A stretch of DNA of 23,738 nucleotides from an uncultured Pseudodesulfovibrio sp. GTDB lineage: Bacteria; Desulfobacterota; Desulfovibrionia; Desulfovibrionales; Desulfovibrionaceae. Every line of letters begins with the position of its first letter. Positions within the stretch are counted from its first letter, which is position 1. Under the pieces are notes generated by a model. That model was not told the origin of the DNA. It made no database searches and saw nothing but the letters and a program-made list of their open reading frames with translations. The DNA is taken from positions 1-23,738 of the forward strand of contig CAMYLL010000003.1 in NCBI GenBank assembly GCA_947259235.1, given 5' to 3'. The translations under genes and the position numbers were made by a program. Positions 4,756-19,794 of this stretch are shown piece after piece.

Positions 4756-4894
4756 GGTGCGCTACATCTAGCAGAAATAGTTTTTCTTCGTAAAGGGTGA
4801 TGCGCGCCTGTCGCCCGCGTATACGCCCTGGTCCGGGCCGGTCCTGCCTCAGCGTCGAGTTGACTTTTCACGGACCGGCGCATAGGTGGTGAGC
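4756..4894. promoter_or_regulatory. Divergent GT-A / GT-B promoter region
   Basis: 139-bp gap between two oppositely transcribed glycosyltransferase genes. On the minus strand TTTACG (4794-4789), an 18-base spacer and TAGATG (4770-4765) form a weak sigma-70-like pair, with the hexamer ending only 9 bases before the GT-A ATG. On the plus strand TTGACT (4860-4865) is a good -35, but the hexamer at proper spacing (TAGGTG, 4883-4888) is poor. AGGTGG at 4885-4890 is the likely ribosome binding site for GT-B. Promoter calls here are tentative. Confidence 0.35.
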
Positions 4895-6535
4895 ATGCCG
4901 ATTTCCATTGACCAGGCCGGGTTGGCCGCAAAACTCCCGGGCGACCTGTTGCGTTCACTCCTGCTGGGCTGCACCGGCCGGGTTCACCTGCACGCAACGG
5001 CGGCCCTGGCTCTGACTCATTCGCGCGCGCCGGGCGACCCCTGCGCGCGCATCGCGGCGGACCTGCTCCTGGCCGCCTGGGGCGAGAACCCCTTTGACGC
5101 ACAGTGCGCGGCCGCTGTGGTCGAGGCCGCTCCGAAAACAGGGGAGCCGGACAAAGCCCTGATCCCCATCCTGCGTTCAGCCATGGTTCACTGGCAGCCC
5201 GAGGCAACGCCCGAGGCGCGGCTGGCCATGGCCGGACCTCCGGCCGATCAGTTCGCCTACATCATGGCCCGGCTGCGCCACCTGCCGCGCAACTTGTTCT
5301 GGTGGCATCATCTGTATGAATACTGCCGCATCTGCGGCGACTGGAGCATTCTCCTGGCCGCCCTGGACGGTCCGGCCGCAGTGGGGACCGTGCCGCCCGA
5401 GGGGCTCGGCCCGCTCTTTGCCTTTGCCCGGGCCAACGCCTTGTTCCTCATGGGCGACGTGTTGCCCGCCGCCGGAATGTATCGCCACGTCGAGCTGTCG
5501 TTGCCCCTGCCCCTGGTCCGGGAGCGGCTGGCCACGGCCTGGCTCCGCTCGGGCAAGCTGGACAAGGGCACCGACCTGCTGCGCCGGTGCGCCCTTGAAC
5601 GGCCGTGGCACGCGGGGCTGTTGTTGCGTCTTTACGAACTTTTCGCGGACGGAGCCCGGGAGACGGCCGTTCCATCCGGGCGGACCATGATCCTTGGGTA
5701 CAGCTACAACAAGGCGGACGATCTGGCCGCCACCCTCGATTCCCTGGTCCGTTCCGAGCTAGGCGACGCCCGGGTGCGCATCCTCGACAACGGCAGTTCG
5801 GACGACACCGCCGAGGTGGTTCGCCGGTTCGTGGACCGTTTCGGCTCGGACCGGGCGGCCCTGGTCTCCCTGCCCGTCAACGTGGGCGCGCCTGCGGCCC
5901 GCAACTGGCTCATGAGCCTGCCCGAGGTGCGGCAAAACGACTATCTGGCCTACATCGACGACGACATCTCACTGCCGGGCGACTGGCTGCTCCGGCTGGG
6001 CGGCGCCGTGGCCCGCTACCCCGAGGCAGGGGTCTGGGGGTGCAAGGTCGTGAATTTCGACGGCCCGGCCCGGGTGCAGTGCGGCGAGCACAATCTGACG
6101 CCGGACCCAGCGGGGCGCGACGCCGCGCTCATGGCCACCCTCATGCTTCAGGAGGCGGACTATGGCCAGGCGGATTACATCCGTCCCTGCGCCTCGGTGA
6201 CCGGGTGCGTGCATCTCTTCCGCACGGAGCGGCTGCTGGCCGCCGGTCCCTTTGATCTGCGCTTTTCCCCCACCCAGTACGACGACCTGGAGCGGGACCT
6301 GCGCATGGTGCTGGGCGGCGGCTATGCCGTGTATCAGGGATTCCTGGCCATTCCGCACCGGCGCACCTCCGGCGCGGCCAGCGACGCGGGCGGGCCGCAG
6401 TCCGCCGGGGCCGAGGCCAACATGCACAAGCTCATGGCCAAGTACACGCCCGGGGAGTTCGAGCGCATGGCCGGGCTCATGGACCGCGTCCTGCTCGACG
6501 ATGTGCTTCGCAAGGGCCGCGAGCTCGGCCTTTGA
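4895..6535 (+). CDS. GT-B: family 2 glycosyltransferase with helical N-terminal domain
   Basis: 546 residues from the ATG at 4895, which has AGGTGG 4-5 bases upstream. In-frame GTG codons at 4886 and 4889 are possible but have no ribosome binding site. Residues 1 to about 260 are helical and include a TPR-like helix pair around 180-240. The catalytic domain has YSYNKADDLAATLDSL (269-284), ILDNGSSDDT (296-305), LPVNVGAPAARNWL (326-339), DDD at 355-357, a GCVHL motif (437-441, where the other two have CCHL) and SPTQYDDLERDL (458-469). The C-terminal NMHKLMAKYTPGEF (509-522) matches an equivalent stretch in GT-A and GT-C, which suggests a family-specific tail. No secretion signal or membrane segment. 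Donor and acceptor sugars cannot be read from sequence. Confidence 0.85.
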   Translation: MPISIDQAGLAAKLPGDLLRSLLLGCTGRVHLHATAALALTHSRAPGDPCARIAADLLLAAWGENPFDAQCAAAVVEAAPKTGEPDKALIPILRSAMVHWQPEATPEARLAMAGPPADQFAYIMARLRHLPRNLFWWHHLYEYCRICGDWSILLAALDGPAAVGTVPPEGLGPLFAFARANALFLMGDVLPAAGMYRHVELSLPLPLVRERLATAWLRSGKLDKGTDLLRRCALERPWHAGLLLRLYELFADGARETAVPSGRTMILGYSYNKADDLAATLDSLVRSELGDARVRILDNGSSDDTAEVVRRFVDRFGSDRAALVSLPVNVGAPAARNWLMSLPEVRQNDYLAYIDDDISLPGDWLLRLGGAVARYPEAGVWGCKVVNFDGPARVQCGEHNLTPDPAGRDAALMATLMLQEADYGQADYIRPCASVTGCVHLFRTERLLAAGPFDLRFSPTQYDDLERDLRMVLGGGYAVYQGFLAIPHRRTSGAASDAGGPQSAGAEANMHKLMAKYTPGEFERMAGLMDRVLLDDVLRKGRELGL

Positions 6536-7339: not shown

Positions 7340-8997
7340 CATGCCCGGCGGTCTGCGGCCCGGTCGTCGCGGGCCGAGGCGAGCAGGGGGCGCATCATGC
7401 GCCAGAAGGCTCCGGCCGGGCCGTCCAGGGTGGGCAGCACCGCGTCCAGGGCGTCAAGGAATCCGTCGCGGTCGGCCCGTGTCACGGCGTGATCCATGCG
7501 GGTCAGTTCTGCCAGATCGAACCGGTGCTCCATCTTGTAATGGTTGGCATAGGCCTGGGCCACCCCGGCCCGGGTGCGTGCGCCGCCCGTGTCCTGGAGG
7601 TGGACCACCTCGACCCCGCCGTCGTAGATCACCTGTCCGCCCGCTTTCCATATCTGGAGGTCGTGCTCGATGTCGTCCACCTGTGACGGCGAGAAACAGA
7701 CGTCGAAGCCAGGCACGCCCAAGGCGGACAGGCGCTCCATGTGAAAGAGATGACAGCAGCCCATGACCGTCAGGCTCGGCCGGGCGGCGTCGAACTGGCC
7801 CATGTCCATGAGGGTGGGCGCGTTGGCCGTGAGCCGGATCTTGCGCTCGCCGATCTCCTGAAAGGCGCGGAAGGCGTACTGGATGGTGCGCACGTCCTGG
7901 TTGACGCATTTCGCCCCCACGGCCGTGGCCTTGGGGAACCGCTCCAGGGTGGCGGCGTAGCGGGACAGCCAGTGGGCGGGCAGGAGCACGTCGTCGTCCA
8001 GGAAGGCCACATGGCGCGCCCGGCGCACCTCCGGCAGGGAGAGCAGCCAGTTGCGCGCGGCTGGGGCGCCCACGTTGACGGGCAGGTGCACGAATTCGGG
8101 GGTCAGTCCGGGCGCGGCGGCTCGTACCCGGTCCTCCAGCTCCTGCGGCGAGCAGACCGTGGTGCCGTTGTTGAGGATGGTCACGCGGGCCGGGCCGAGG
8201 TCCGTGGCGGCAAGGCTGGCCGCTGTCCGGGCCAGCAGGTCCGGCTTGTTCCAGGAGTAGAGGCAGATGTGCGTTTGCGAGGCCGCGTCCGGCTTGGCCA
8301 TCGGGTGGCCCAGCTCGGCCAGCAGTTCTATGGCCGCTGGCTGGAAAGGCTCCATTTCAAGCGAGGCGCGTAGAAAAAGACCTGCCTGCGCCCGGTCGTC
8401 GCGGTCCATGGCCATGCGTGCGCGCAGGTTGAGGCCCGCAAAGCTCGGCACGGCATGGTCGAGGAGCTGCTCGGCCAGCTCCGGCTCGCCCGCGCCGTAA
8501 GCGCCCCAGGCCAGGGTTGGCCCGGCCAGCGGCCCGGACTCGGACGACGCCACAGCTTTGATGCCTCCCAGCAAGGGGCCGCGCATGCCCGATTGCCAGA
8601 CCCGGAGCAGGACCGGGTATCGGTAGGCGTTGGCTGGCTGGGCGCGAATGTAATCCAACAGCGCGTCCGGGTCAGCGGAATCCGTGTCCGGCGGGGCCAT
8701 TGGTTCCGGCAGGGGCTCGGTGTCGTTGAGGGTGCGGGCCTGGGTCAGCCAGTCTTCCATGGGCGGGTGGCCGATGGTTCGGTGCATGTCCGTGGCCAGA
8801 CGGATGGTGTCGCGGTTGAAGGGGTCGAAGATGGCGGCGTGTCGGACAAGCCCTGCCCCCAGGGCCGCGAGCCCCGGCGTCAGGGGACGTGCTTCCAGCA
8901 GGGTTCCGGCGGCTGCCAGGGCGTGGTCCGGGGCGAGGTCGCCGCTGGCGCGGGTGAGATGGATCAGACGCGAGACACGGTGGGCGGCGTTGTGCAT
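7339..8997 (-). CDS. GT-C: family 2 glycosyltransferase with helical N-terminal domain
   Basis: 552 residues from the ATG at 8995-8997. The frame remains open upstream to 9141, but that extension would run into the terminator of the sigma-54 activator gene, so the shorter form is preferred; no good ribosome binding site is seen for either. Residues 1 to about 240 are Ala-rich helices. The catalytic half has YSWNKPDLLARTAASL (247-262), LPVNVGAPAARNWL (305-318), DDD at 334-336, GCCHLF (423-428) and SPSQVDDIEHDL (436-447). The position equal to the LDNGSTD loop of GT-A reads ILNNGTT (284-290), so the usual first aspartate is Asn here; this may alter nucleotide binding or donor choice. It is convergent with the SLOG-like gene. 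Confidence 0.83.
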   Translation of the reverse strand: MHNAAHRVSRLIHLTRASGDLAPDHALAAAGTLLEARPLTPGLAALGAGLVRHAAIFDPFNRDTIRLATDMHRTIGHPPMEDWLTQARTLNDTEPLPEPMAPPDTDSADPDALLDYIRAQPANAYRYPVLLRVWQSGMRGPLLGGIKAVASSESGPLAGPTLAWGAYGAGEPELAEQLLDHAVPSFAGLNLRARMAMDRDDRAQAGLFLRASLEMEPFQPAAIELLAELGHPMAKPDAASQTHICLYSWNKPDLLARTAASLAATDLGPARVTILNNGTTVCSPQELEDRVRAAAPGLTPEFVHLPVNVGAPAARNWLLSLPEVRRARHVAFLDDDVLLPAHWLSRYAATLERFPKATAVGAKCVNQDVRTIQYAFRAFQEIGERKIRLTANAPTLMDMGQFDAARPSLTVMGCCHLFHMERLSALGVPGFDVCFSPSQVDDIEHDLQIWKAGGQVIYDGGVEVVHLQDTGGARTRAGVAQAYANHYKMEHRFDLAELTRMDHAVTRADRDGFLDALDAVLPTLDGPAGAFWRMMRPLLASARDDRAADRRA

Positions 8998-9144
8998 GGA
9001 TCGGATGTAGCAGATTTGCCCCCCCGAGGGAAAGGAAGGAATACGCCCTTTGACCACTGGCGACGGCTCGTCGTCTTGATTCGCCCCGGCGTCATCGTTT
9101 GCCGCGTGCCGGTTCCCGGGATTCGGCCGAGAACATGCCAAGCG

Positions 9145-9196: not shown

Positions 9197-10777
9197 TCAG
9201 TTCTCCAGCTTCTTTTTCGATTTCTTCTTGGAGGGGGAGAACTTCTTTACGTCGATGTTGTACTTCTTCACCTTGTAATTGACGATGCGGTAGGACACGC
9301 GCAGGTCGCGGGCGGACTGGAGCATGTTGCCGCCGGTCTTCTTGAGCGAGTCCACCAGCAGCTCCTGCTCGAACTTGGCCACGGCCTCGCCGAAGGAGAG
9401 GTTGATCCCCGTGGCCGAGCTTTCGGCCGACTGGAGGGTGGGCGGCAGGTGGTACGTGCGGATGACCGACTCCTCGCATAGCAGCACGGCGCGTTCGATG
9501 CAGTTCTTGAGCTCGCGCACGTTGCCGGGCCAGTGATACATGACGAGCAGTTCGATGGCCGGGGTGGAGATGCGTTTGACTTCCTTGCCGTACTCGCCGC
9601 AAAAGTCGCTGAGGAAATGCTCGGCCAGGGGCAGGATGTCCTCGCGTCGTTCCTTGAGGGGCGGGATGAAGATGGGAAAGACGTTGATGCGATAGTAGAG
9701 GTCCTCGCGGAAGCGACCCTTTTCCAGCAGCTCTTCCAGGGGCTGGTGGGTGGCGCAGATGAGGCGGACGTCCACAGTGATGGTCTGTTCGCTGCCCACG
9801 CGCTGGATTTCCTTTTCCTGGATGGCGCGCAGCACCTTGGCCTGGGCGTCCATGGACAGCTCGCCGATCTCGTCGAGGAACAGGGTTCCCTGGTCCGCCA
9901 CTTCGAAGAGGCCGCGCTTGGTCTGGAAGGCCCCGGTGAACGCGCCCTTCTGGTGGCCGAACAGCTCGGACTCGATGAGCTCCGAGGGCAGGGCCGCGCA
10001 GTTGAGCTTGATCAGCGGCTTGTCGGCCCGGGGGCTCGACGAATGGATGGCCTCGGCCAGCAGCTCCTTGCCGGTGCCGGACTCGCCGCGCAGCAGCGCC
10101 GTGGCCCGGCTGGGGGCCACCTGTCGCGACTGGCGCAGGACAAGGCGCATGGCCTTGCTGGCCGCCACGAAGTCCTTGGGCGGAGCGGAGTCCGCGCCGC
10201 CGGCCATCATGCCCTGGTTGAGCATGTGGCTCTGGGCCGCCATCTCCTCCTGGAGCTGGGCCACGTGGCCCGCGATGATTCCCGCCACCACTTCGAGGAA
10301 CTGGCGGTGGGCGTCGAGGTCCTCGGCCGGGATGAGCGGCACGTCCACGGAGAGGGCGCCGATGACTTCCTCGTCCTCGGCCCGGTGGTTGATCACCGGC
10401 ACGCAGATGAAGCCGAGCTTGCGGAGCTCGTCCTCGCTGCGTCCGAAGGCCTTGTTGAGGAACTCCTTGTCGTCGGACATACGCGGCACGGTGATGGACT
10501 GGCCGGAGTCAAAGACGCGTCCGATGATGCCCCGACCGGGGGAATAGGTGACGTCGTCGGCCTGGGCCGGGCTGTACGTGAGCGAGAGCTTCAGGTTCTC
10601 GGTCTTGGGGTCCATGATGACCATGAACGCCCGGACGTACTCCATGTCCTGGGCCAGGGTTTTCAGCAACCTGTTCAGCGATTCCTCAAGGGGGGCGTCC
10701 CGCTTGAGGGTTTCCTGTATGGTTTTGAGGGTGACCAGATAGCTGAGATCCGAGTCGGCCTGTGTCGTGTATGCCAT
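9197..10777 (-). CDS. NifA-type sigma-54-dependent activator (GAF, AAA+, HTH)
   Basis: 526 residues. A GAF sensor domain spans about 20-180 (GRGIIGRVFDSG at 81-92). The AAA+ domain follows with Walker A GESGTGKE (231-238), the sigma-54 contact loop GAFTGA (288-293), Walker B GTLFLDEIGE (297-306) and an arginine-finger region (REDLYYR, 357-363). A FIS-type HTH lies at about 482-509 (TGGNMLQSARDL, 481-492), and the protein ends in an unusual Lys/Ser-rich tail (511-523). Proteins of this type bind enhancers and use ATP hydrolysis to open sigma-54 promoters; the GAF domain senses a ligand or redox signal. No nif genes are near. The gene starts 12 bases after iorB and is the last gene of the ior operon, so it probably regulates aromatic amino acid or 2-oxoacid metabolism, possibly its own operon. 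The cysteine pattern of oxygen-sensing NifA linkers is not seen. Confidence 0.92.
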   Translation of the reverse strand: MAYTTQADSDLSYLVTLKTIQETLKRDAPLEESLNRLLKTLAQDMEYVRAFMVIMDPKTENLKLSLTYSPAQADDVTYSPGRGIIGRVFDSGQSITVPRMSDDKEFLNKAFGRSEDELRKLGFICVPVINHRAEDEEVIGALSVDVPLIPAEDLDAHRQFLEVVAGIIAGHVAQLQEEMAAQSHMLNQGMMAGGADSAPPKDFVAASKAMRLVLRQSRQVAPSRATALLRGESGTGKELLAEAIHSSSPRADKPLIKLNCAALPSELIESELFGHQKGAFTGAFQTKRGLFEVADQGTLFLDEIGELSMDAQAKVLRAIQEKEIQRVGSEQTITVDVRLICATHQPLEELLEKGRFREDLYYRINVFPIFIPPLKERREDILPLAEHFLSDFCGEYGKEVKRISTPAIELLVMYHWPGNVRELKNCIERAVLLCEESVIRTYHLPPTLQSAESSATGINLSFGEAVAKFEQELLVDSLKKTGGNMLQSARDLRVSYRIVNYKVKKYNIDVKKFSPSKKKSKKKLEN

Positions 10778-10789
10778 TTGGTTACTTCT

Positions 10790-11386
10790 CTAGGCTTCGA
10801 GCGCGGCCACGCCCATGGCGAGGGCCTTGAGGTTGACGGCCTGGATCTTTGCCGGGAGGTTCGCCTTGATGGTCGCTTCCAGGGCCTCGGGGCCGAAGGG
10901 GAGCGCGCCCGTGGCGCACAGGGCGCCGAGCAGGGCTATGTTGCCGCTCTGGACGGCGCCTGCTTCGATGCCGATGGTCTGGCTGGCCATGTAGTAGGCC
11001 TTGTCGGTGCAGGCGGCGATCCGTTCCCTGACCTCGTCCATGGTGGGGCATTCCTGCTTGCCCATGGCCACGGAAAGGGGCGGCATGAACTCGGTGCTGG
11101 AGAGCACCAGTCCGCCGCGCTTGAGGTAGGGCAGGGCGCGCACGGTCTCCATGGGCTCGAAGCCCATGAGGATGTCGGCTTCGCCGTGACCGATCTTTGG
11201 CGATTTGCAGCCGATGAGCACGGTGGATTCCACCACGCCGCCGCGCTGGGCCATGCCGTGGATTTCGCCGGAGGTGACCGGCAGCCCGGAGGCGAGCACG
11301 GTCTTGGCGAGCAGGGTGGTGGCGGTCAGGGTTCCCTGGCCGCCCACGCCGGTCATGAATATGCGGATGGGCTTGACGTCGTTCAT
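10790..11386 (-). CDS. iorB: Indolepyruvate:ferredoxin oxidoreductase, beta subunit
   Basis: 198 residues of the 2-oxoacid:ferredoxin oxidoreductase gamma-domain family. The glycine-rich GVGGQGTLTATTLLA (13-27) and HGMAQRGG (43-50) are typical family motifs. With IorA it forms the enzyme that converts aryl pyruvates (indolepyruvate, phenylpyruvate and similar) plus CoA into acyl-CoA, CO2 and reduced ferredoxin, a step of aromatic amino acid fermentation that can also run in reverse in some anaerobes. The ATG is one base past the iorA stop codon, so translation is probably coupled. The length of about 200 residues is normal for IorB. Confidence 0.95.
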   Translation of the reverse strand: MNDVKPIRIFMTGVGGQGTLTATTLLAKTVLASGLPVTSGEIHGMAQRGGVVESTVLIGCKSPKIGHGEADILMGFEPMETVRALPYLKRGGLVLSSTEFMPPLSVAMGKQECPTMDEVRERIAACTDKAYYMASQTIGIEAGAVQSGNIALLGALCATGALPFGPEALEATIKANLPAKIQAVNLKALAMGVAALEA

Positions 11387-11387
11387 T

Positions 11388-13223
11388 CTAGCTGCCCCTT
11401 TTCTTCGCTTTGATGTGTCCGCAGATCTGCAGGCAGAGCATGCAGCCGTTGCACAGGATGGGATTGACCGCGGCCTTTCCGCCGGACTTGTACATGGCGG
11501 GGCAGGCGAGCTTGTCGAGGCAGTCGAACCGTCCGGCGCAGCTGTCCGCGACGTAGGCGACCTGCGGAGCGGTCTTCTTGTAGACCCGGCGGGTGAAGAG
11601 CGGGCACGGCTCCTTGGCGATGAGCACGCGCACGCCGGAGAGCTCCTTGAGCTCCTCGAAGGCGGCCAGGGTTTTCTTCTGGTTGAAGGGATTGACCTCG
11701 CGCACTTCGGTCACGCCGAGTCCGCGCACGGCGGCCTCGATGCTCAGCGGGGAGTCGTTCTCGCCGAGTATGGTGCGGTCCACGCTGGGGTTGGGCTGGT
11801 GGCCGGTCATTGCCGTGGTCCTGTTGTCCAGCACGACGATGAGGATGTCGTGTTGGTTGAATACGGCGTTGGCGACGCCGGTCAGGCCGGAATGGAAGAA
11901 GGTGGAGTCGCCGATGAAGGCGACCACGGTCTGCCCGGCGGCCCGGGCCGCGCCGCAGCCCGCCGAGATGGACGATCCCATGCACAGCAGGAAATCGGCC
12001 GCCTGGAGCGGGGGCAGGATGCCCAGGGTGTAGCAGCCGATGTCCGAAGAATAGACGGCGTCGTCGCCGAAGACCTTCTTGGCCGCGAAATAGGTGCCTC
12101 GGTGTGGGCAGCCCGCACAAAGGTTCGGCGGACGCATGGGCAGCTCGGCGGCCGGGCAGGTTTCCACTGCTGCGGCGGGCGCGCCTGCCAGCTCGCGGAT
12201 GGCGTTCTCCACCATGGTCACGTTGAACTCGTTGTTGGCCGGGAGGGTCCCCTTGCCCATGATTTCGAGGCTGAGGCCGTTCTTCTGGGCCAGCACGCGC
12301 AGGTCGTTCTCAAGGATGGGCTCCAGCTCCTCGACCACGAGCAGCTTGGAGACGGACTTGAGAAAGTCGAGGCACATGGTCTCGGGCAGGGGGTTGGAAA
12401 AGCCGAGTTCGAGGACCCTGACCGTGTCGCCCAGACCCGAAGCGGCCAGGGCATCGGCCACATAGGCGCGGCTGATGCCGGAGCAGGCCACGCCGATAGT
12501 ACCGCTGCCGGTGACGGTGTTGTAGGGGGACGTCTCCGCCTCGGCGCGCAGCGCTTCGAGCCGCTCCAGCAGCGCCACGTGCATGGGCCGGGAAAACGCC
12601 GGGATCGGGACGAATTTCGAGGGATTGCGTTTGAAACCCTCGGGGGTACCCGGCTCGGTCACCGGGCCGAACTCCACGGAGCCGCGCAGGTGGTTGACCC
12701 GGGTGGTGGTGCGCAGCAAAAAGGGTGCGCCGTGTTTCTTGCTCAGGAGCAGACCGTCGCGGGTCATGTCCTTGGCTTCCTGGGCCGTGGCCGGTTCGAG
12801 CACGGGCATGCCTGCGATGCGGGCGTAGTACCTGTTGTCCTGCTCGTTCTGGCTGGAGTGGCAGCCGGGGTCGTCGGCCGAGAGCAGCACAAGGCCGCCC
12901 GGAGTGCCGGTGTAGCACAGGGTCATGAGCGGGTCGGCCGCCACGTTGACGCCCACGTGCTTCATCGTGCACAGGGTCATGGCGCCGGACAGGGTCGCGC
13001 CGCCGGCCACCTCAAGGGCGACCTTTTCGTTGACCGAGTATTCAAAGGTGTATTTGCCGTCGGGGGACAGGCGGAACAGCGTGTCCGGGACCTCGGACGA
13101 GGGGGTTCCGGGGTAGCAGGTGGCTACCTGGAGCCCTGCCTCGACCGCTCCGCGAACGATGGCCTCGTTGCCGAGCAGGAGGTGGGTTTGGCCGGGAGTG
13201 TCGGCCAGAAGAGGATGTGCCAT
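11388..13223 (-). CDS. iorA: Indolepyruvate:ferredoxin oxidoreductase, alpha subunit
   Basis: 611 residues, normal for IorA. The start ATG has CGGAGAA 7 bases upstream on the minus strand. The N-terminal half holds the pyrimidine-binding domain (GNEAIVRGA at 18-26, YPGTPSSEV at 37-45). The C-terminal half has LCAGCPHRG (368-376) and a thiamine diphosphate motif running from GDS (438-440) to LDN (465-467). The tail is ferredoxin-like: CNGCMLCLQIC (591-601) supplies one complete 4Fe-4S set. The other set reads C562, R565, C568, C574, so the usual second cysteine is Arg. The enzyme is cytoplasmic and oxygen-sensitive in known relatives. It is cotranscribed with iorB and the activator, and follows the TPR-like gene by 34 bases. 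Confidence 0.95.
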   Translation of the reverse strand: MAHPLLADTPGQTHLLLGNEAIVRGAVEAGLQVATCYPGTPSSEVPDTLFRLSPDGKYTFEYSVNEKVALEVAGGATLSGAMTLCTMKHVGVNVAADPLMTLCYTGTPGGLVLLSADDPGCHSSQNEQDNRYYARIAGMPVLEPATAQEAKDMTRDGLLLSKKHGAPFLLRTTTRVNHLRGSVEFGPVTEPGTPEGFKRNPSKFVPIPAFSRPMHVALLERLEALRAEAETSPYNTVTGSGTIGVACSGISRAYVADALAASGLGDTVRVLELGFSNPLPETMCLDFLKSVSKLLVVEELEPILENDLRVLAQKNGLSLEIMGKGTLPANNEFNVTMVENAIRELAGAPAAAVETCPAAELPMRPPNLCAGCPHRGTYFAAKKVFGDDAVYSSDIGCYTLGILPPLQAADFLLCMGSSISAGCGAARAAGQTVVAFIGDSTFFHSGLTGVANAVFNQHDILIVVLDNRTTAMTGHQPNPSVDRTILGENDSPLSIEAAVRGLGVTEVREVNPFNQKKTLAAFEELKELSGVRVLIAKEPCPLFTRRVYKKTAPQVAYVADSCAGRFDCLDKLACPAMYKSGGKAAVNPILCNGCMLCLQICGHIKAKKRGS

Positions 13224-13257
13224 GTGGATTCTCCGTATTCTCTGATGGTGGGAACGG

Positions 13258-13911
13258 TTATTTCGCTTCCAGCTGGGCGATCTTGTGATCAATGAAGGGC
13301 TTGTCCGCCACGGGCTGTTCGGCAAGCTTGCGATAGGCGTCCAGGGCCTGGGCCGTGTCGCCTGCCGCCTCGGCCGCCACGGCGAGCTGCCTGTAGACGG
13401 GCACGGTGAAGGCGGCCGGAGCGATGCCGGACAGTTCCTTGAGCTCGGTTAGGGCTTCGCCCGCCTTGCCAGCCAGGGTCAGGCATTTGGCGTTGCCCAG
13501 ACGGGCTACCAGCCTGAGATCGTCGTCGGCCTCGCCCGCCAGCCGGGCCCAGTATGAGGCGCTCTTGTCGTAGAGGTCCTGGTTCATGGTGGCCTCGGCC
13601 AGTTCGAGGAGGAGGGCGGGCTTTGCGGCCGAGGGCGCGTCGCCGAGCAGGGCTTCCAGACGGTCGATCTTGTCCTGGCCGGATGCCTCGATGAGGATGG
13701 TGCCGAGCTGCGCCTGGGCCTTGGTCAGCGCCCGGGCGGTGTATCCGGTGTATCCGGCATAGGCGGCGGCCACGAGGACGATGGCGACCACGCCCGCGAT
13801 GAGCTGCTTGCTGTGTTTGAATGCGGCTTCGATGACGGGATGCAGCGTGTCGGGAACACGGGCCTCGATGTCGTCGAGGGTGGAGTGGTCGGTGGTCTTG
13901 TTTTCAGCCAT
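13258..13911 (-). CDS. Membrane-anchored TPR-like protein (YfgM/TPR_21 type)
   Basis: 217 residues. A short cytoplasmic N-terminus is followed by one membrane segment at about 36-57 (LIAGVVAIVLVAAAYAGYTG is its core), then Ala/Leu-rich helical pairs that look like tetratricopeptide repeats (about 65-215). This layout matches YfgM/TPR_21-like proteins, which face the periplasm and assist protein traffic at the membrane; the match is by architecture, not by a diagnostic motif. The ATG at 13909-13911 has GGAGGA about 10 bases upstream on the minus strand; a start further up at 14007 lacks one. The stop lies 34 bases before iorA on the same strand, so the gene probably heads the operon although its function need not be linked to it. 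Confidence 0.75.
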   Translation of the reverse strand: MAENKTTDHSTLDDIEARVPDTLHPVIEAAFKHSKQLIAGVVAIVLVAAAYAGYTGYTARALTKAQAQLGTILIEASGQDKIDRLEALLGDAPSAAKPALLLELAEATMNQDLYDKSASYWARLAGEADDDLRLVARLGNAKCLTLAGKAGEALTELKELSGIAPAAFTVPVYRQLAVAAEAAGDTAQALDAYRKLAEQPVADKPFIDHKIAQLEAK

Positions 13912-14062: not shown

Positions 14063-14169
14063 TGTCCCGCTCGCAAATGACAAAATGCGTAAATCGGCTC
14101 CGCAACGGATTCCGGCTGGGTAACTGGCGCGTCCTGTTTGACTTTTCTCCCGGTCGGGGGTTAGCACAT

Positions 14170-14198
14170 TTGACCGGGTGGAGCGATGATCGTTCATT
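14170..14198 (+). promoter_or_regulatory. Candidate proA promoter
   Basis: TTGACC (14170-14175), 17-base spacer, TTCATT (14193-14198, three of six). Start of transcription would be near 14205, about 28 bases before the proA ATG. An alternative is TTGACT (14138-14143) with an 18-base spacer and TAGCAC (14162-14167). Neither -10 box is good. Confidence 0.35.
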
Positions 14199-14232
14199 CC
14201 GACATTTTTCGGATATTTGCCAAGGAGGCGGC

Positions 14233-15492
14233 ATGGAGATTCGCGAGCAGATGATTGAGATGGGCAAGCGTGCCAGGCGCGCGTCGCGTGCACTGGCCAA
14301 GGCCTCGGGCAAGGCCAAGCAGGAGGCGCTCATGGTGCTGGCGGACCTGCTGGAGTCCGAGGGCATGGCCATTGCCAAGGCCAACGCCAAGGACCTGGAC
14401 GCGGCGGCCGAGCGCGGGCTGGACAAGGCGCGGATGCAGCGGCTGACCATCAGCGACAAGGTGCTCGACGCCATGATCAAGGGATGCCGCGACGTGGCCG
14501 CCATGCCGGACCCCGTTGGCGAGCTGGAATCCATGAGCAAGCGGCCCAACGGCATGCTGGTGGGCCGGATGCGCGTGCCTCTCGGCGTGGTGGCCATGAT
14601 CTACGAATCACGGCCCAACGCCACGGTGGACGCGGGAATCCTGTGCCTCAAGGCGGGCAACGCGGTGATCCTGCGCGGCGGGTCCGAGGCGTTCCATTCC
14701 AACACCTGTCTGGCCGGGCTCATGCACCGCGCCCTGGAGCAGGCCGGGCTGCCGCAGGACGCCGTCCAGGTTCCGCCCACGGCGGACCGCGAGGCGGTGG
14801 CCGAGATGCTCAAGCTTTCAGACTACATCGACGTAGTCATCCCGCGCGGGGGCGAAGGCCTCATCCGCGCCGTCACCGAGCAGGCCACCATGCCGGTGCT
14901 CAAGCACTACAAGGGCGTCTGCCACATCTTTGCCGACGCCTCCTGTGACATCACAAAGGCCGTGCCCATCATCGAGAACGCCAAGGTGCAGTACCCCAGC
15001 GGCTGCAACGCCCTGGAGTGCCTGCTGGTGCACAAGGACGTGGCCGAGGTGCTCCTGCCCCGGGTGGACGCGGCCCTTGGTTCCAAGGGCGTGCGGTTCA
15101 AGGCGTGTCCCCGTTCCCTGCCCCTGCTGGGCGAGACCGCCGAGCCAGCCTCTCCCCTGGACTACGGGTTCGAGTTTCTTGATCTGGTCATGGCCGTCAA
15201 GGTGGTGGACTCCCTGGACGAGGCCCTGGACTTCATCGCCGAGCACGGCTCCAATCATACGGAGTCGATCCTCAGCGAGAACTACGCCCACTGCATGCGC
15301 TTTATCCGCGAGGTGGACGCCTCCCTGGTGGTCTCCAACGCCACCACGCGTTTCAACGACGGCGCGCAGCTCGGCCTGGGCGCGGAGATCGGCATCTCCA
15401 CTTCCAAGCTTCACGCCTATGGCCCCATGGGCATCCGCGAGCTGACCAGCGCCAAGTTCGTCCTGTTGGGCGAAGGGCAGATCCGGGAGTAG
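14233..15492 (+). CDS. proA: Glutamate-5-semialdehyde dehydrogenase (gamma-glutamyl phosphate reductase)
   Basis: 419 residues, the normal ProA length (about 415-420). It carries out the second step of proline synthesis, NADPH-dependent reduction of gamma-glutamyl phosphate to glutamate-5-semialdehyde, in the cytoplasm. Characteristic segments are VPLGVVAMIYESRPNAT (115-131), VVIPRGGEGLIR (201-212), GVCHIFAD (228-235) and YPSGCNALECLLVH (254-267), in which C258 is the expected catalytic cysteine. AAGGAGG ends 4 bases before the ATG. No proB or proC is adjacent. The gene stands alone, convergent with the cysteine synthase fusion, and the two share a terminator. Confidence 0.97.
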   Translation: MEIREQMIEMGKRARRASRALAKASGKAKQEALMVLADLLESEGMAIAKANAKDLDAAAERGLDKARMQRLTISDKVLDAMIKGCRDVAAMPDPVGELESMSKRPNGMLVGRMRVPLGVVAMIYESRPNATVDAGILCLKAGNAVILRGGSEAFHSNTCLAGLMHRALEQAGLPQDAVQVPPTADREAVAEMLKLSDYIDVVIPRGGEGLIRAVTEQATMPVLKHYKGVCHIFADASCDITKAVPIIENAKVQYPSGCNALECLLVHKDVAEVLLPRVDAALGSKGVRFKACPRSLPLLGETAEPASPLDYGFEFLDLVMAVKVVDSLDEALDFIAEHGSNHTESILSENYAHCMRFIREVDASLVVSNATTRFNDGAQLGLGAEIGISTSKLHAYGPMGIRELTSAKFVLLGEGQIRE

Positions 15493-15575: not shown

Positions 15576-17855
15576 CTAGAGCTTAAACACCCGGGGCGCG
15601 CCCGCCGTGTCCTCCAGCCGGTATCCGGCCTGGGTGATCTGGTCGCGCAGGGCGTCCGAGGCGGCGAAGTCCTTGGCCTCGCGGGCCTTCTGGCGGTCAG
15701 CCAGCATGCCCTGCACTGCGGCGGGGAGCTCGGCCAGAGGTATCGGCATCTGGCTGTGGTCGATGATGCCCAGGATGGAATCCACGGCCATCAACTCGTC
15801 CAGGCAGGCCGAGGCGGCGGCCCCGGTGAGGGTTCCTGCGGCGGCCCAGGCGTTGACCTGCTTGATGAACCGGAAAAGCACGGGCCAGAAACGATGCAGG
15901 GCGAGGTCGTCGTTCATGGCGGCCTTGAACCCGGCGCGCAGGTCGAACACGGCCTGATCCGCCTCGGCGGGCATACCCCGGCCCGAGTCGGCCCGGGTCA
16001 TGGTCAGCACGGCCGCGCCTTCCTGAATCCTGCGCCAGTTGCGCGCCCACATGGACAGGTTGTCGTCGTTGGCGCACAACGGCTTGCGGCAGGCCGAGGA
16101 GAGCAGCCACAGCCGTGCGGCGTGGAACCCGCCGAGCTTATCGGCCACCGAGGCCAGGGTTTCGTCGGCGCAGCCTGTGGCCTGCTGGTTGACCAGCCAT
16201 GCCTGCAACTCGCGCCCGGCCGTGGACCAGATGGCCCGGAGATTTTCCAGATGGGGGAAGCGGTGCTTCTCGCTGCCGATCATGACGTCGATGCGGTCCA
16301 GGGCGGTCAGGGCCGTGGCCGCATGCTGGAGGAACCACGTGGGGCGGACATTGCCCCACTCCGTCTCCAGCACTTCGCCGCGCTTGAGGTCGAGCAGGGT
16401 GGCCCGCTTGAGCAGGGTGAAGTCCAGGGGGTTGTCCTTGACGTAGGCGTCGAGGTCCACGGTGCGTCCGCCCGAGACCTTGTCCATGTCCATGGCCCCG
16501 ATCTCGCCGTAGCGCTTGTCGCGGAAGACATCGAAATAGACCGAGCGGAGCTTTTCATAGGCCAGCCCCTTGCCGAGCAGCTTGCGGCACAGCTCCAGGG
16601 CCTTGCCCTCGCTGCCGGAGGACAGGGGGAAGGCAACGCTCTCGGCCACGCCCATGTCGCGCGCGCGGGCCATGACGGCGGCGCGCCCGTCCGCGGCAAA
16701 GGCGGCCAGCGAGGCGCTCGTCTGCCGGACGGCGGCCAGGGTCCTGTCGTCCATGTCGGTCAGGCCCACTGCGGCCTGGGCCTCTACCCCGCGCGAGCGC
16801 AGGTGGCGGGCCAGCACGTCGAGGACCATCACCCGCCGCCAGGCGTCGAGACCGTCGGGGTTGTCCAGGCTCGGGCCCATGGTATAGACCCCCAGCCCCG
16901 CGCCGGTCTTGAGCGGCTTGACGGCGCCGGAGGCCATGTCGAAGACGGTGATGCCGCTGCCTGTCTGCTGGCGGTAGAGATGGGTGCTCAGGTAGCGCTC
17001 GCCCGAGTCGGGAAAGAGGGTGACGATGAGCCCGTGGTCGAGCCGTTCGGCCAGCTGGAGCGCGCCGCCCAGGGCCGCGCCGGAGCTCATGCCCGTGAAG
17101 ATTCCTTCGGCGCGGGCCAGCCTGCGGCAGTTCTCGAAGGCGGTCTCGTCGTCCACGTGGAGGATCTCGTCGAGCCATGTTTTGTTATAGATGCCCGGGG
17201 GGTAGGATTCGAGCATGTTCTTGAGGCCCTGAATCTTGTGGCCTGCATAGGGCTCCACGGCGGCCACGTGGACCGAGCCCATCTCGTGCAGCCGCTTGGC
17301 GATGCCCATGGCCGTGCCGGAGGTGCCAAGGGCCATGACGCAGTGGGTCACCGCGCCCCCGGTCTGCTCCCATATCTCAAGGCCCGTGCCGTGATAGTGG
17401 GCGTCGATAGAGGCGGGGTTGTTGAACTGGTCCATGAGCACGTAGGTTTCCGGCTCCTCGCGGGCGTAGCGGTAGGCGCGCTCTATGGCGCCGTCGGTGG
17501 AGAGATGGCCGGGGGTCAGCTCCAGCTCGGCCCCGTAGGCGGCCATGATCATCTTGCGCTCCTCGCTGGCCGTCTCCGGCATGAGCAGCTTGATGCGGTA
17601 GCCCTTGATGGCCGCCACCATGGCCAGCCCCACGCCGGTGTTGCCCGAGGTGGCCTCGATGATGATCTTGTCCTTGGTCAGCTCGCCGGAACGCTCCGCC
17701 GCCTCGATCATGGCAACCGCCACCCGGTCCTTGATGGAGCCGCCCGGGTTCTGCGCCTCGAGCTTGGCCAAAATCTTGACGTTCGGGTTGGGGTTGAGAT
17801 TGCGTATCTCCACCAGCGGGGTTCCGCCGATGAGTGAAAGAAGGTCTTTATTCAT
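15576..17855 (-). CDS. Cysteine synthase fused to a catalytically degenerate CysRS-like domain
   Basis: 759 residues. Residues 1 to about 300 are a PLP-dependent cysteine synthase/CBS-family domain, probably using O-acetylserine and sulfide: PLP lysine K42 in GGSIKDR (38-44), TSGNTG (69-74), phosphate loop GTSGT (177-181), MSSGAA (256-261) and PDSGERYLST (282-291). Residues about 302-759 align by motif with complete cysteinyl-tRNA synthetase, ending in AREAKDFAASDALRD (724-738), the typical CysRS C-terminus. The active-site motifs are lost: CGPT is MGPS (326-329), the HIGH block is GLDAWR (335-340), WHIECS is WFLQHA (507-512), the HGGG block is MIGSEKHRFPHLEN (525-538), and KMSKS is absent. 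Aminoacylation is therefore unlikely; a regulatory, tRNA-binding or scaffold role is inferred. The ATG at 17855 has AGGGA 7 bases upstream. Confidence 0.92.
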   Translation of the reverse strand: MNKDLLSLIGGTPLVEIRNLNPNPNVKILAKLEAQNPGGSIKDRVAVAMIEAAERSGELTKDKIIIEATSGNTGVGLAMVAAIKGYRIKLLMPETASEERKMIMAAYGAELELTPGHLSTDGAIERAYRYAREEPETYVLMDQFNNPASIDAHYHGTGLEIWEQTGGAVTHCVMALGTSGTAMGIAKRLHEMGSVHVAAVEPYAGHKIQGLKNMLESYPPGIYNKTWLDEILHVDDETAFENCRRLARAEGIFTGMSSGAALGGALQLAERLDHGLIVTLFPDSGERYLSTHLYRQQTGSGITVFDMASGAVKPLKTGAGLGVYTMGPSLDNPDGLDAWRRVMVLDVLARHLRSRGVEAQAAVGLTDMDDRTLAAVRQTSASLAAFAADGRAAVMARARDMGVAESVAFPLSSGSEGKALELCRKLLGKGLAYEKLRSVYFDVFRDKRYGEIGAMDMDKVSGGRTVDLDAYVKDNPLDFTLLKRATLLDLKRGEVLETEWGNVRPTWFLQHAATALTALDRIDVMIGSEKHRFPHLENLRAIWSTAGRELQAWLVNQQATGCADETLASVADKLGGFHAARLWLLSSACRKPLCANDDNLSMWARNWRRIQEGAAVLTMTRADSGRGMPAEADQAVFDLRAGFKAAMNDDLALHRFWPVLFRFIKQVNAWAAAGTLTGAAASACLDELMAVDSILGIIDHSQMPIPLAELPAAVQGMLADRQKAREAKDFAASDALRDQITQAGYRLEDTAGAPRVFKL

Positions 17856-17910: not shown

Positions 17911-17920
17911 GCAAATTTGC
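17911..17920. repeat. 10-bp palindrome in the divergent cysteine synthase / MAF gap
   Basis: GCAAATTTGC is a perfect palindrome at 17911-17920. It lies about 40 bases upstream of the predicted sigma-54 start site and in the leader/promoter zone of the divergent cysteine synthase gene. It could be a regulator site. This is closer than the usual enhancer distance for sigma-54 activators, so a repressor or a chance palindrome are alternatives. Confidence 0.4.
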
Positions 17921-17932
17921 GACAGGTGCAAC

Positions 17933-17948
17933 TGGCACGCATCGTGCA
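17933..17948 (+). promoter_or_regulatory. Sigma-54 (RpoN) -24/-12 promoter for the MAF gene
   Basis: TGGCACG (17933-17939), four bases, then GTGCA (17944-17948) match the sigma-54 consensus TGGCACG-N4-TTGCA with one mismatch. The essential GG (17934-17935) and GC (17946-17947) are separated by exactly 10 bases. Transcription would start near 17959, about 48 bases before the ATG at 18007. Many flagellar and surface-modification genes in related bacteria are sigma-54 dependent, which fits the gene it precedes. Confidence 0.75.
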
Positions 17949-18006
17949 AATCTCAGGCGAATCCGGAGCGATTGACACCGCATCAACACCGCACAAAGGA
18001 CCAGGC

Positions 18007-19794
18007 ATGACCGCGTATCCGTTTTTGAAGGACAACATCGAGTATCTCAGGCGCAAGGGCCACCCGATCTTTCACTGGCTCTCCACCCGCGAGTTCAATG
18101 AGGAGGCGTTGCTGAACAACCTCTACATCAACCGGTTCGGCATCCATGACTGGCGCATGGAAAACGGCCAGGGGATGTTCGAGAGCCTGCCTCCAAACGG
18201 TCTGTACGGATCATGGCTCGGCGGCGACAAGCCCGAGACCTCGGCCACCTTCATCGTGGGCTGCAACCTGGGCTATGGCGTCAACCATGTCATTCAGGGC
18301 ATGCCCGACAGCCACAAGATCATGCTCATCGAGCCCCGGCCCGAGATGCTCCTGGCCTGCCTGAGCCAGACCGACTACCGGCCGTTCTTCGAGGCCAACA
18401 AATTTCACATCCTGGTCCCCGACGAGCGGTACATCCACGAGGTGCTCAGGAATCTGGACCTGCAGTTCGTCTACGGCCAGATTCATCTCAAGAGCGATGT
18501 TCCCAGTCAGCAGCTCGGCCCCGAGTATGCCCGCTGGGCGGTCTTTGTCCGCAACAAGCTGGAGAACTTCTCCCTTGAGCTGTCCACCCTGCGCTTTCGC
18601 CAGGACGTCATGGTCGGCAACGAGATTCACAACTTCAGACGGGCCATGGCCGAAGGCTCCATCAAGAACCTGGAAGGCAAGGCGGCAGGCATCGGCGGGG
18701 TCATCCTTGGCGCTGGGCCGAGCCTTGAGGACTTTGTGCCCGCGTTGCTTGAGAATCCGGGCTACGCCCTCTACACCAGCGCCCTGCAGACCGTGCCAAC
18801 CCTCCAGGCGCTGGGCATCAAGCCCCATTTCTGCGTGGCCATCGACTACGACGATTCCATGCTCCGCATCTTCGATCGCCTCGACCCCGATTTCGTTCAG
18901 GACATTCCGCTCATTTACTCCACCAAGGTCAACCCCGAGGCGGTGGCCCGCTATGCCGGGCCGACCCTGCCCCTGTGGACCGTGGGCGGCATGGGGACCT
19001 ATTCCATGAAGGAGCATGACCTCGTGCTGGACGCGGGCGGCAACGTCTCCGTGACCATCTCGCGGCTGCTGCGCTGGATGGGCGTCAACCACATGCTGCT
19101 CGTGGGCCAGGACTACGCATGGCTCAAGAATCGCTCCCACGCCGCCGGGCATCACAACCACACCACCAACATGGTCCGGCAGAGCTACCACCAGACCACC
19201 CGGAACATGGACGGCGAGGAGATACTGACCACCGTCCAGTACATGACGGCCAAGCGCGAGCTGGAGGCTGACATCAAGGACGCCTCGCTCCCGGTCTTCA
19301 ACGTCTACGGCGGCGGCGCTCCCATCGAGGGGACCCGGGTCGTCGATCTGTCCACGGCCTATGCCGAGGGGCTCCTGGCCTCGGCCCCGGGCAGCGTGGA
19401 ACGGTTCATGGCCGAGCTGCTGGCCAGCCGGGGGAGCATGACCCCGGTCCGCTTCGAGCCGCGCGGCCCCATGTGGTCCGCCTCCCTGCGCAACATCGAG
19501 AAGCACCTGGGCAAGCTCTTCCGCAACCTGGAGGCCAATCAGGACCAGATTCACGAGGCCTTTGGCCGGGTGGACATGTTCTTCAAGCAGGACCCGCTCT
19601 ACATGCCGTACCTCTACAACGAGACCGTGGACCTGGCCGGGCTGACACGGGCCAAGAAACGGTACGTCCAGCGCGACTTCCCGGAGTTCAAGCGCATCGC
19701 CCGGTGCGTGCTCAAGAAGGTGCGCGAGGTGGACCGGCTGGTGTGCATGGCCCACGATGACGCGGTCCATGACGCGGATCAGGCCGTGGCCTAG
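18007..19794 (+). CDS. MAF/DUF115 family protein (6-hydroxymethylpterin pyrophosphokinase MptE-like)
   Basis: 595 residues. The central DUF115 domain shows GGVILGAGPSLEDF (230-243), ALQTVPTLQALGIKPHF (259-275), AIDYDD (278-283), LLVGQDYAWLKN (364-375) and FNVYGGGAPIEG (431-442). Motility accessory factor proteins of this family are required for glycosylation of flagellin with nonulosonic acids in Campylobacter, Aeromonas and others and are thought to transfer the sugar in the cytoplasm. The N-terminal 200 residues (with TFIVGCNLGYGV at 81-92) and the helical C-terminus are typical extensions. The ATG has AAAGGA 6 bases upstream. The gene is preceded by a sigma-54 promoter, consistent with coupling to flagellar expression. 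No flagellin or nonulosonate synthesis gene is in the window, so the substrate is inferred from the family. Confidence 0.88.
   Translation: MTAYPFLKDNIEYLRRKGHPIFHWLSTREFNEEALLNNLYINRFGIHDWRMENGQGMFESLPPNGLYGSWLGGDKPETSATFIVGCNLGYGVNHVIQGMPDSHKIMLIEPRPEMLLACLSQTDYRPFFEANKFHILVPDERYIHEVLRNLDLQFVYGQIHLKSDVPSQQLGPEYARWAVFVRNKLENFSLELSTLRFRQDVMVGNEIHNFRRAMAEGSIKNLEGKAAGIGGVILGAGPSLEDFVPALLENPGYALYTSALQTVPTLQALGIKPHFCVAIDYDDSMLRIFDRLDPDFVQDIPLIYSTKVNPEAVARYAGPTLPLWTVGGMGTYSMKEHDLVLDAGGNVSVTISRLLRWMGVNHMLLVGQDYAWLKNRSHAAGHHNHTTNMVRQSYHQTTRNMDGEEILTTVQYMTAKRELEADIKDASLPVFNVYGGGAPIEGTRVVDLSTAYAEGLLASAPGSVERFMAELLASRGSMTPVRFEPRGPMWSASLRNIEKHLGKLFRNLEANQDQIHEAFGRVDMFFKQDPLYMPYLYNETVDLAGLTRAKKRYVQRDFPEFKRIARCVLKKVREVDRLVCMAHDDAVHDADQAVA

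Follow-up and report, generated by a model that had tools for sequence, protein, structure and literature searches.

Copies of aminoacyl-tRNA synthetases that no longer charge tRNA are already known to regulate amino acid biosynthesis, as in the case of HisZ, a separate subunit of class II descent. GCN2, a eukaryotic kinase acting on translation, senses uncharged tRNA through a HisRS-like domain. Among the relatives of cysteinyl-tRNA synthetase (CysRS), the mycothiol ligase MshC activates cysteine and has no anticodon domain, with which the lengths of its profile (411 positions) and chains (413-414 residues) agree. Excerpts of PMC9437257 describe HisZ as a HisRS paralogue without adenylation that mediates histidine feedback on HisG, list MshC and CysRS* as CysRS paralogues in Table 1, and present CysRS* of Desulfobacterales as a second, altered CysRS without an anticodon domain. 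Here we describe a gene in a 23,738-nucleotide stretch of DNA (the window; contig CAMYLL010000003.1, positions 1 to 23,738, of assembly GCA_947259235.1) from an uncultured Pseudodesulfovibrio sp., which encodes a cysteine synthase dependent on pyridoxal phosphate (PLP) fused to a CysRS-like domain that has lost its charging motifs, hereafter the pseudo-CysRS.

The fusion resembles HisZ in that a charging-dead synthetase paralogue is coupled to an enzyme that makes its amino acid (excerpts of PMC9437257 and PMC10795190). The window genome has both marks of a HisZ-type system, a paralogue without charging motifs and a separate true synthetase; the paralogue differs from HisZ in being a class I CysRS, covalently fused, with its anticodon reader kept. 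Like CysRS*, as excerpted, it is a second altered CysRS in a related lineage, but the fusion keeps the anticodon domain and loses the charging motifs, and relative to MshC it is the opposite half that is kept. CysM (cysteine synthase B) and the O-phosphoserine-dependent CysM of M. tuberculosis have no fused synthetase, and unlike that of GCN2 the output of the fusion would be the biosynthetic enzyme itself. None of the open-licence PMC papers listed in the literature searches describes, by title or abstract, a cysteine synthase-CysRS fusion.

The best overall explanation, which we hold tentatively and at somewhat under even confidence, is a CysE-independent cysteine synthase with the pseudo-CysRS as a tRNA-Cys sensor. 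The enzyme would need no serine acetyltransferase and would probably be an O-phosphoserine, possibly a serine, sulfhydrylase. The C-terminal domain, unable to activate cysteine or to charge tRNA, would still read the G34 side of the tRNA-Cys anticodon, and binding of tRNA-Cys would alter the activity of the fused PLP enzyme. Uncharged tRNA would be the most useful signal, since it marks cysteine shortage; activation by it is a guess. What the sequences themselves show is the loss of the charging motifs, the kept anticodon reader, a single origin in a quick tree, purifying selection, and a fused enzyme that persists where neither CysE nor a second cysteine synthase was found; the acceptor substrate, tRNA binding, regulation and direction of control are points that we infer. 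The elements of the gene are as follows.

15576..17855, minus strand: whole gene, cysteine synthase/pseudo-CysRS fusion, 759 amino acids; start 17855, stop 15576-15578
17007..17837, minus strand: CysM-type PLP domain, residues 7-283, with K42, SGNT 70-73, Q143, GTxGT 177-181, S257 and G259
16956..16991, minus strand: linker, residues 289-300, predicted local distance difference test (pLDDT) <50
16221..16895, minus strand: match to tRNA-synt_1e, residues 321-545, the decayed CysRS catalytic domain
16869..16880, minus strand: MGPS 326-329 at the CGxT place, with zinc ligand C28 lost
16842..16853, minus strand: GLDA 335-338 at the HIGH place
16335..16559, minus strand: family signature, residues 433-507 (YEKLRS..., TVDL.YVKDNP.DFTLLKR..L.DLK, WGNVRPxW)
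16242..16259, minus strand: FPHLEN 533-538, with H234 retained and the next ligand, E238, lost (L539)
16163..16164, minus strand: junction of the KMSKS-loop deletion, between residues 564 and 565
15606..15731, minus strand: CysS_C anticodon-binding domain, residues 709-750, a Pfam match
15645..15695, minus strand: anticodon-reading stretch R721, R725, F730, D734, R737 (E. coli R423, R427, W432, D436, R439)
15609..15611, minus strand: D749 (E. coli D451), retained in 61/62 Desulfovibrionales fused proteins, the remaining row being a gap

A preliminary description, made from the letters alone, had placed the gene correctly without naming its strand, which is minus. The landmarks that it listed are all present, in the PLP half (K42, TSGNTG 69-74, GTSGT 177-181, SSG 257-259) as well as in the CysRS half (MGPS 326-329, GLDA 335-338, DMDD 367-370, NPLDF 475-479, FPHLEN 533-538). 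Pfam finds PALP (E 1.7e-69), tRNA-synt_1e (E 1e-22) and CysS_C (E 3.6e-6). Against NCBIfam the protein scores 127.7 bits for cysS, under the curated score of 340, 345.3 bits for cysKM, barely above the subfamily score of 344.15, and 39.7 bits for MshC, under 485.1. The closest family matches of the C-terminal half are to CysRS, with no sign of HisRS descent. Comparison of the structural model gives matches to single domains only, and in the CysRS half these recover the overall fold from the first strand through the anticodon domain.

The loss of charging chemistry was assessed by comparing E. coli CysRS and 30 canonical CysRS of the phylum with the fused proteins of the order Desulfovibrionales, where 70 loci reduce to 63 distinct proteins by their last 400 residues; one contig-cut row (L066) was excluded, leaving 62. 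The HIGH motif (HxG[HN]) is present in 31/31 canonical proteins and 0/62 fused ones. None of the 62 has both KMSK lysines, a single protein having a lysine aligned to the second, and in the window protein the loop is deleted rather than mutated, which refines the early remark that KMSKS is missing. Zinc ligands C28, C209 and E238 (E. coli numbering) are lost in all 62. The preliminary view that every catalytic element had changed is right for these and for HIGH; it fails for the fourth ligand, H234 (H535 in the window protein), retained in 61/62. W205, N237 and D69 are invariant. Relative to CysRS, the fusion thus shares the full-length fold, from first strand to anticodon domain, but lacks HIGH, KMSKS and three of four zinc ligands, and sits behind a PLP enzyme. 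Judged by these residues, the CysRS half is unable to charge tRNA by known chemistry, and motif loss in 62/62 leads us to reject an ordinary bifunctional enzyme whose CysRS would be active in the window.

The same residues bear on two other proposals. One is that the CysRS paralogue has persulfide synthase (CPERS) activity paired with a sulfhydrylase. E. coli CysRS makes cysteine persulfide with PLP at the lysines of KIIK 73-76 and KMSK 266-269, according to an excerpt of PMC10655014, but the six commonest tetrads at the KIIK place, covering 39/62 proteins, are lysine-free, and both KMSK lysines occur in 0/62. The window protein has RTLA at the KIIK place and its KMSK deleted. We give this proposal next to no probability and reject it on the lost KIIK and KMSK lysines. 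The second, unlikely but to be taken seriously, is a metabolite sensor like HisZ, in which the pseudo-CysRS, through a remodelled pocket for cysteine or some other metabolite, controls the PLP enzyme and keeps its anticodon domain for structural reasons only. Besides the HisZ precedent itself, it is favoured by invariant W205, N237 and D69, by H234, and by a fused-only signature in the decayed catalytic half (K435, S438, Y471, T480, R484, L487 and K491 among others). The loss of C28, C209 and E238 argues against cysteine being held in the canonical way. Of the roles first suggested, binding of cysteine or Cys-AMP in that way is therefore less likely: W205, H234 and N237 remain, but HIGH, KMSKS and three of the four zinc ligands do not; tRNA-Cys binding would lead, the anticodon-reading residues being the best kept.

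A metabolite sensor leaves unexplained why the residues that read G34 are the best-kept part. Among 69 positions invariant in canonical CysRS, those kept in at least 90% of the 62 fused proteins number 5/15 in the first catalytic part, 8/13 in the middle, 5/30 in the second catalytic part and 6/6 in the anticodon domain (6/6 against 18/63 elsewhere, Fisher p 0.0011, the positions not being independent). In structure 1u0b, as excerpted in PMC12684709, G34 of tRNA-Cys is contacted by Arg427, Asp436, Trp432 and Arg423 of E. coli CysRS. At these places the fused proteins have R/K in 61/62, D in 62/62, F/Y in 62/62 and R in 62/62, respectively, and the window protein has R423, R427, D436, R439 and D451 all present. 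CysRS* (in the excerpted account) and MshC, two other CysRS paralogues that do not read the tRNA-Cys anticodon, both lack the anticodon domain.

Another reading is a docking or supply module, in which the domain would tether the synthase to tRNA-Cys or to the true CysRS and so place cysteine synthesis at the site of charging, with no allostery. The covalent fusion of a maker and a former user of cysteine speaks for this, as do the many charging-site residues that remain in less decayed lineages; the catalytic decay and the retained anticodon residues suit sensing at least as well, and we regard docking as distinctly unlikely. For the sensor, a domain that reads tRNA-Cys but cannot charge it would be suited to report the charging state, and the signal route may pre-exist in the fold, since E. 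coli CysRS is described as having a path that leads from its anticodon region into the catalytic site (excerpt of PMC9976931).

The PLP half is, by its residues, an intact CysM-type enzyme: K42, SGNT 70-73, Q143, G177, T178, G180, T181, K212, N213, S257, G259 and D283 are identical in 102/102 fused proteins. The invariant K212 lies in an LKNM loop reminiscent of the LRNM loop that M. tuberculosis CysM has. The matches listed for the phylum sample also include standalone PLP enzymes (e.g. G214:C96:7244-8122), 51-61% identical to this half, which may be its unfused relatives.

In the classical cysteine pathway, cysteine exerts feedback at CysE. A route that bypasses CysE, the normal feedback point, would need another control point, which the pseudo-CysRS would supply. 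Twelve of 96 Desulfovibrionales carriers have no second cysteine-synthase match at E 1e-20 (G085, G108, G129, G002, G007, G017, G018, G022, G024, G028, G030, G037), and in none of the 12 is there the CysE match (E 1e-40) that each of the other 84 has. The fused gene is the sole cysKM match over the cut-off in 11 of them (G024 not included), and in eight of the lone carriers searched CysE matches are no better than ~1e-12. Since the fused enzyme persists in carriers without CysE or a second cysteine synthase, it would function without CysE, on O-phosphoserine or serine, and where alone it probably makes cysteine from one of these. Of nine carriers outside the order, G409, G178 and G306 have a CysE match near 1e-47, and G248, G332, G187, G153, G213 and G356 have none better than ~3e-12. 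The search of the phylum sample gives the former two matches each and five of the six CysE-less carriers one; G332, CysE-less yet with two, may be a misfit. The window genome has two contig-edge canonical CysK pieces (C285 and C151), probably one gene, with CysE adjoining the C151 piece. Two order genomes without the fusion, G084 and G008, also have no CysE and no cysteine-synthase search match.

Persistence without CysE would also fit tRNA-dependent synthesis, in which seryl- or phosphoseryl-tRNA-Cys, bound by the pseudo-CysRS, would be turned into Cys-tRNA-Cys by the PLP domain. SepCysS, however, has another PLP fold, most carriers have a separate cysS, and no supplier of mischarged tRNA was found, SepRS not having been searched for. 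SepRS/SepCysS is a known tRNA-bound route (excerpt of PMC8762117), and with this precedent the proposal keeps a very small probability.

The fusion is phylum-wide and is carried by many sulfate-reducing bacteria and their relatives. The order sample comprised 150 Desulfovibrionales genomes, at least 90% complete except the window's own (a draft, 82.8% complete); match counts rest on the top of score-sorted lists and on per-genome match numbers. Among the matches listed, a fused CysRS-like match (at least 213 bits, canonical cysS reaching at most ~110 bits) occurs in 95/150 genomes. A fused-type PLP domain (at least 65% identity, the next at most 49%) occurs, again among the matches listed, in 96/150. 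The 96 are the same 95 plus G024, whose contig ends inside the gene. Several carrier genomes are single-contig, and an assembly artefact is ruled out by the recurrence of the same fused domain in 95/150 genomes.

In a phylum sample of 297 genomes a long match (at least 483 bits) occurs in 116, of which 112 are outside the order, among the matches listed; in G163 and G259 the CysRS half matched only partly. The fused gene of G163 (G163:C1:2736760-2739059), a genome from outside Desulfovibrionales, is divided between reading frames, and its second piece contains an internal TGA. When 84,980 species genomes were scanned with an 82-residue segment of the family, at least 545 confirmed stretches were returned, the PLP half not being checked in each. 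By name, the best 80 of these belong to Desulfovibrionales, other Desulfo- groups, Deltaproteobacteria, Proteobacteria or Pseudomonadota, with a single Myxococcota. In the source databases relatives are labelled cysteine synthase or cysteine--tRNA ligase.

Outside Desulfovibrionales the fused CysRS half is less decayed, giving a graded series across the residues compared. Forty loci were picked from the 112 carriers in two sets of 20; L124, with a broken frame, was excluded from the motif, signature and tree tallies (39 used) and included in the zinc-ligand and PLP-residue tallies. All four zinc ligands are kept in 26/39 fused proteins; the commonest tetrad at the HIGH place is HLGL (10/39) and the commonest pentad at the KMSKS place KMSRS (11/39). 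HxG[HN] occurs in 1/39 and both KMSK lysines in 0/39. The combination of HIGH or HIGN with both KMSK lysines is found in 0/101 fused proteins (0/39 outside the order) and in 31/31 canonical ones. Among the matches listed, 24/30 fused genes searched from the 112 carriers pass the NCBIfam cysS cut-off.

These features could mean that the fused domains of other lineages remain active as a CysRS or cysteine-activating enzyme, perhaps an altered one, of which Desulfovibrionales inherited a decayed form. The retained ligands, the common HLGL and KMSRS and the cysS scores favour this; the near absence of HxG[HN] and the absence of paired KMSK lysines do not, and in each of the 30 carriers searched a separate cysS of canonical type exceeds the cut-off, with HIGH-type motifs in all 30 (two HIGN). 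We consider it very improbable. It concerns the relatives, and is compatible with the tRNA-sensor reading for the window.

A quick tree of 70 rows (15 Desulfovibrionales and 39 other fused, 16 canonical) was built without bootstrap; some of its rows are of odd composition and one canonical row is long. It places all fused rows in one group against all canonical ones (Shimodaira-Hasegawa-like approximate likelihood ratio test, SH-aLRT, 100). The fusion has, in this tree, one origin. Desulfovibrionales form one nested group on a long branch (1.28), and the nearest rows, L106 and L109, are also without C28, C209 and E238.

The long branch, together with the variability of much of the catalytic half, might be taken as the mark of a useless relic drifting without a role, to which we give almost no weight. 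All 70 examined loci of the order are open frames (63 distinct genes, one cut at a contig end), many columns are invariant, and each of the 96 fused-type PLP domains still carries the CysRS-like domain or stops at a contig edge. In 15 comparisons of the window gene with genus members, where synonymous divergence was computable, the ratio of nonsynonymous to synonymous substitution (dN/dS) is 0.11-0.33 for residues 305-700, 0.07-0.41 for residues 701-759 and 0.04-0.20 for the PLP half. Taken as a whole, the anticodon region is thus no slower than the rest; particular residues are kept. Pseudogene drift is rejected on the open frames and dN/dS <1. These ratios indicate that the pseudo-CysRS is kept under purifying selection, in line with the preliminary picture of a CysRS fold retained without its charging motifs. 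The signature block of residues 433-507 marks the fused family, being strongly kept in the Desulfovibrionales and largely in less decayed members, and may contact the PLP half or tRNA.

The dead-enzyme view also predicted a separate cysS. The window genome has its own canonical copy on contig C181 (HIGH, WHLECS, HGGG, FPHHEN), a contig that ends before KMSKS is reached, and 93/96 order carriers have at least one further CysRS-like match by match numbers, those listed lying at canonical-type places. G005 has its separate canonical cysS (G005:C2:129281-130649) broken into two pieces that fall in different open frames, whether by assembly error or in reality.

Several observations weigh against a CysE-independent, tRNA-sensing enzyme. 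Three drafts of 50, 490 and 490 contigs (G065, G085 and G019, respectively) have no separate cysS, also in a search with the cysS family at E 1e-20. A carrier without another cysS had been named beforehand as a refutation, and on paper 3/96 are such carriers. As the dead half could not serve translation by known chemistry, we read them as assembly gaps, which is not proven. G123, without the fusion, is likewise unmatched by the CysRS-like query, so that this weaker query can miss a cysS; the three drafts were searched with the cysS family itself. The remaining lone carriers, G108, G017 and G022, have weaker CysE-like matches (E 1e-31 to 1e-34). The cysK and cysE genes are adjacent in 47/47 carriers checked (of the 84) and may be lost as a unit, so that the 12 cases would be fewer independent events. 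The curated CysE cut-off is reached by 0/150 order genomes; "CysE" here is hence the order's own type, and another acetyltransferase is possible. In the helical part 0/5 canonical-invariant residues are kept at 90%, so tRNA may bind weakly or differently, and the anticodon-domain residues might be kept for folding alone. Finally, the fusion model has a predicted template modelling score (pTM) of 0.61 with a floppy linker, and its domain interface is not trusted.

If the tRNA-sensor reading is true, the fusion would be a direct wire from tRNA to metabolism, a dead synthetase with an anticodon reader fused to the maker of the same amino acid. The wider claim, possible but more doubtful, is that a tRNA directly controls the enzyme that makes its amino acid: in a family spread across the phylum, a CysRS copy joined a single time to a CysE-independent cysteine synthase would have lost its charging chemistry step by step and become an anticodon-reading sensor, with cysteine output following the tRNA-Cys charging state without a transcription factor or riboswitch. 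The series from nearly intact to dead allows the making of a pseudoenzyme to be followed, and the family also suggests that sulfate reducers, organisms living in sulfide, have a cysteine route independent of CysE. The preliminary description had missed the phylum-wide spread and the lesser decay outside Desulfovibrionales, as well as a PLP half that seems to work without CysE. For annotation, the data are a warning: 24/30 searched fused halves outside the order pass the cysS cut-off, yet 0/39 tallied have an intact HIGH/KMSK pair.

Around the gene, the widest cluster of conserved neighbours covers 17/77 fusion loci, all of them in Desulfovibrionales. The picture, blurred by spurious high-GC frames, thus gives no evidence for an operon partner. 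An Rfam scan of the window at gathering thresholds gave no match, hence no curated leader RNA at that threshold, and a tRNA scan of the window found none. Further genes were noted in the window. Within ~6 kb lie three long proteins whose second halves carry a family 2 glycosyltransferase domain, at 3022-4755 (minus), 4886-6532 (plus) and 7342-9141 (minus). At 9200-13325 (minus) a sigma-54 activator adjoins a two-gene POR/TPP oxidoreductase pair, presumably akin to indolepyruvate ferredoxin oxidoreductase. A gene of the aldehyde dehydrogenase family at 14140-15489 (plus), which we take to resemble proA, is convergent with the fusion. Divergent from it, at 17917-19791 (plus), lies an MptE-like (PF01973) gene with a listed start at 17917 and a possible inner ATG at 18007; the start of a similar MptE-like protein was spotted by eye beside the fusion at L042.

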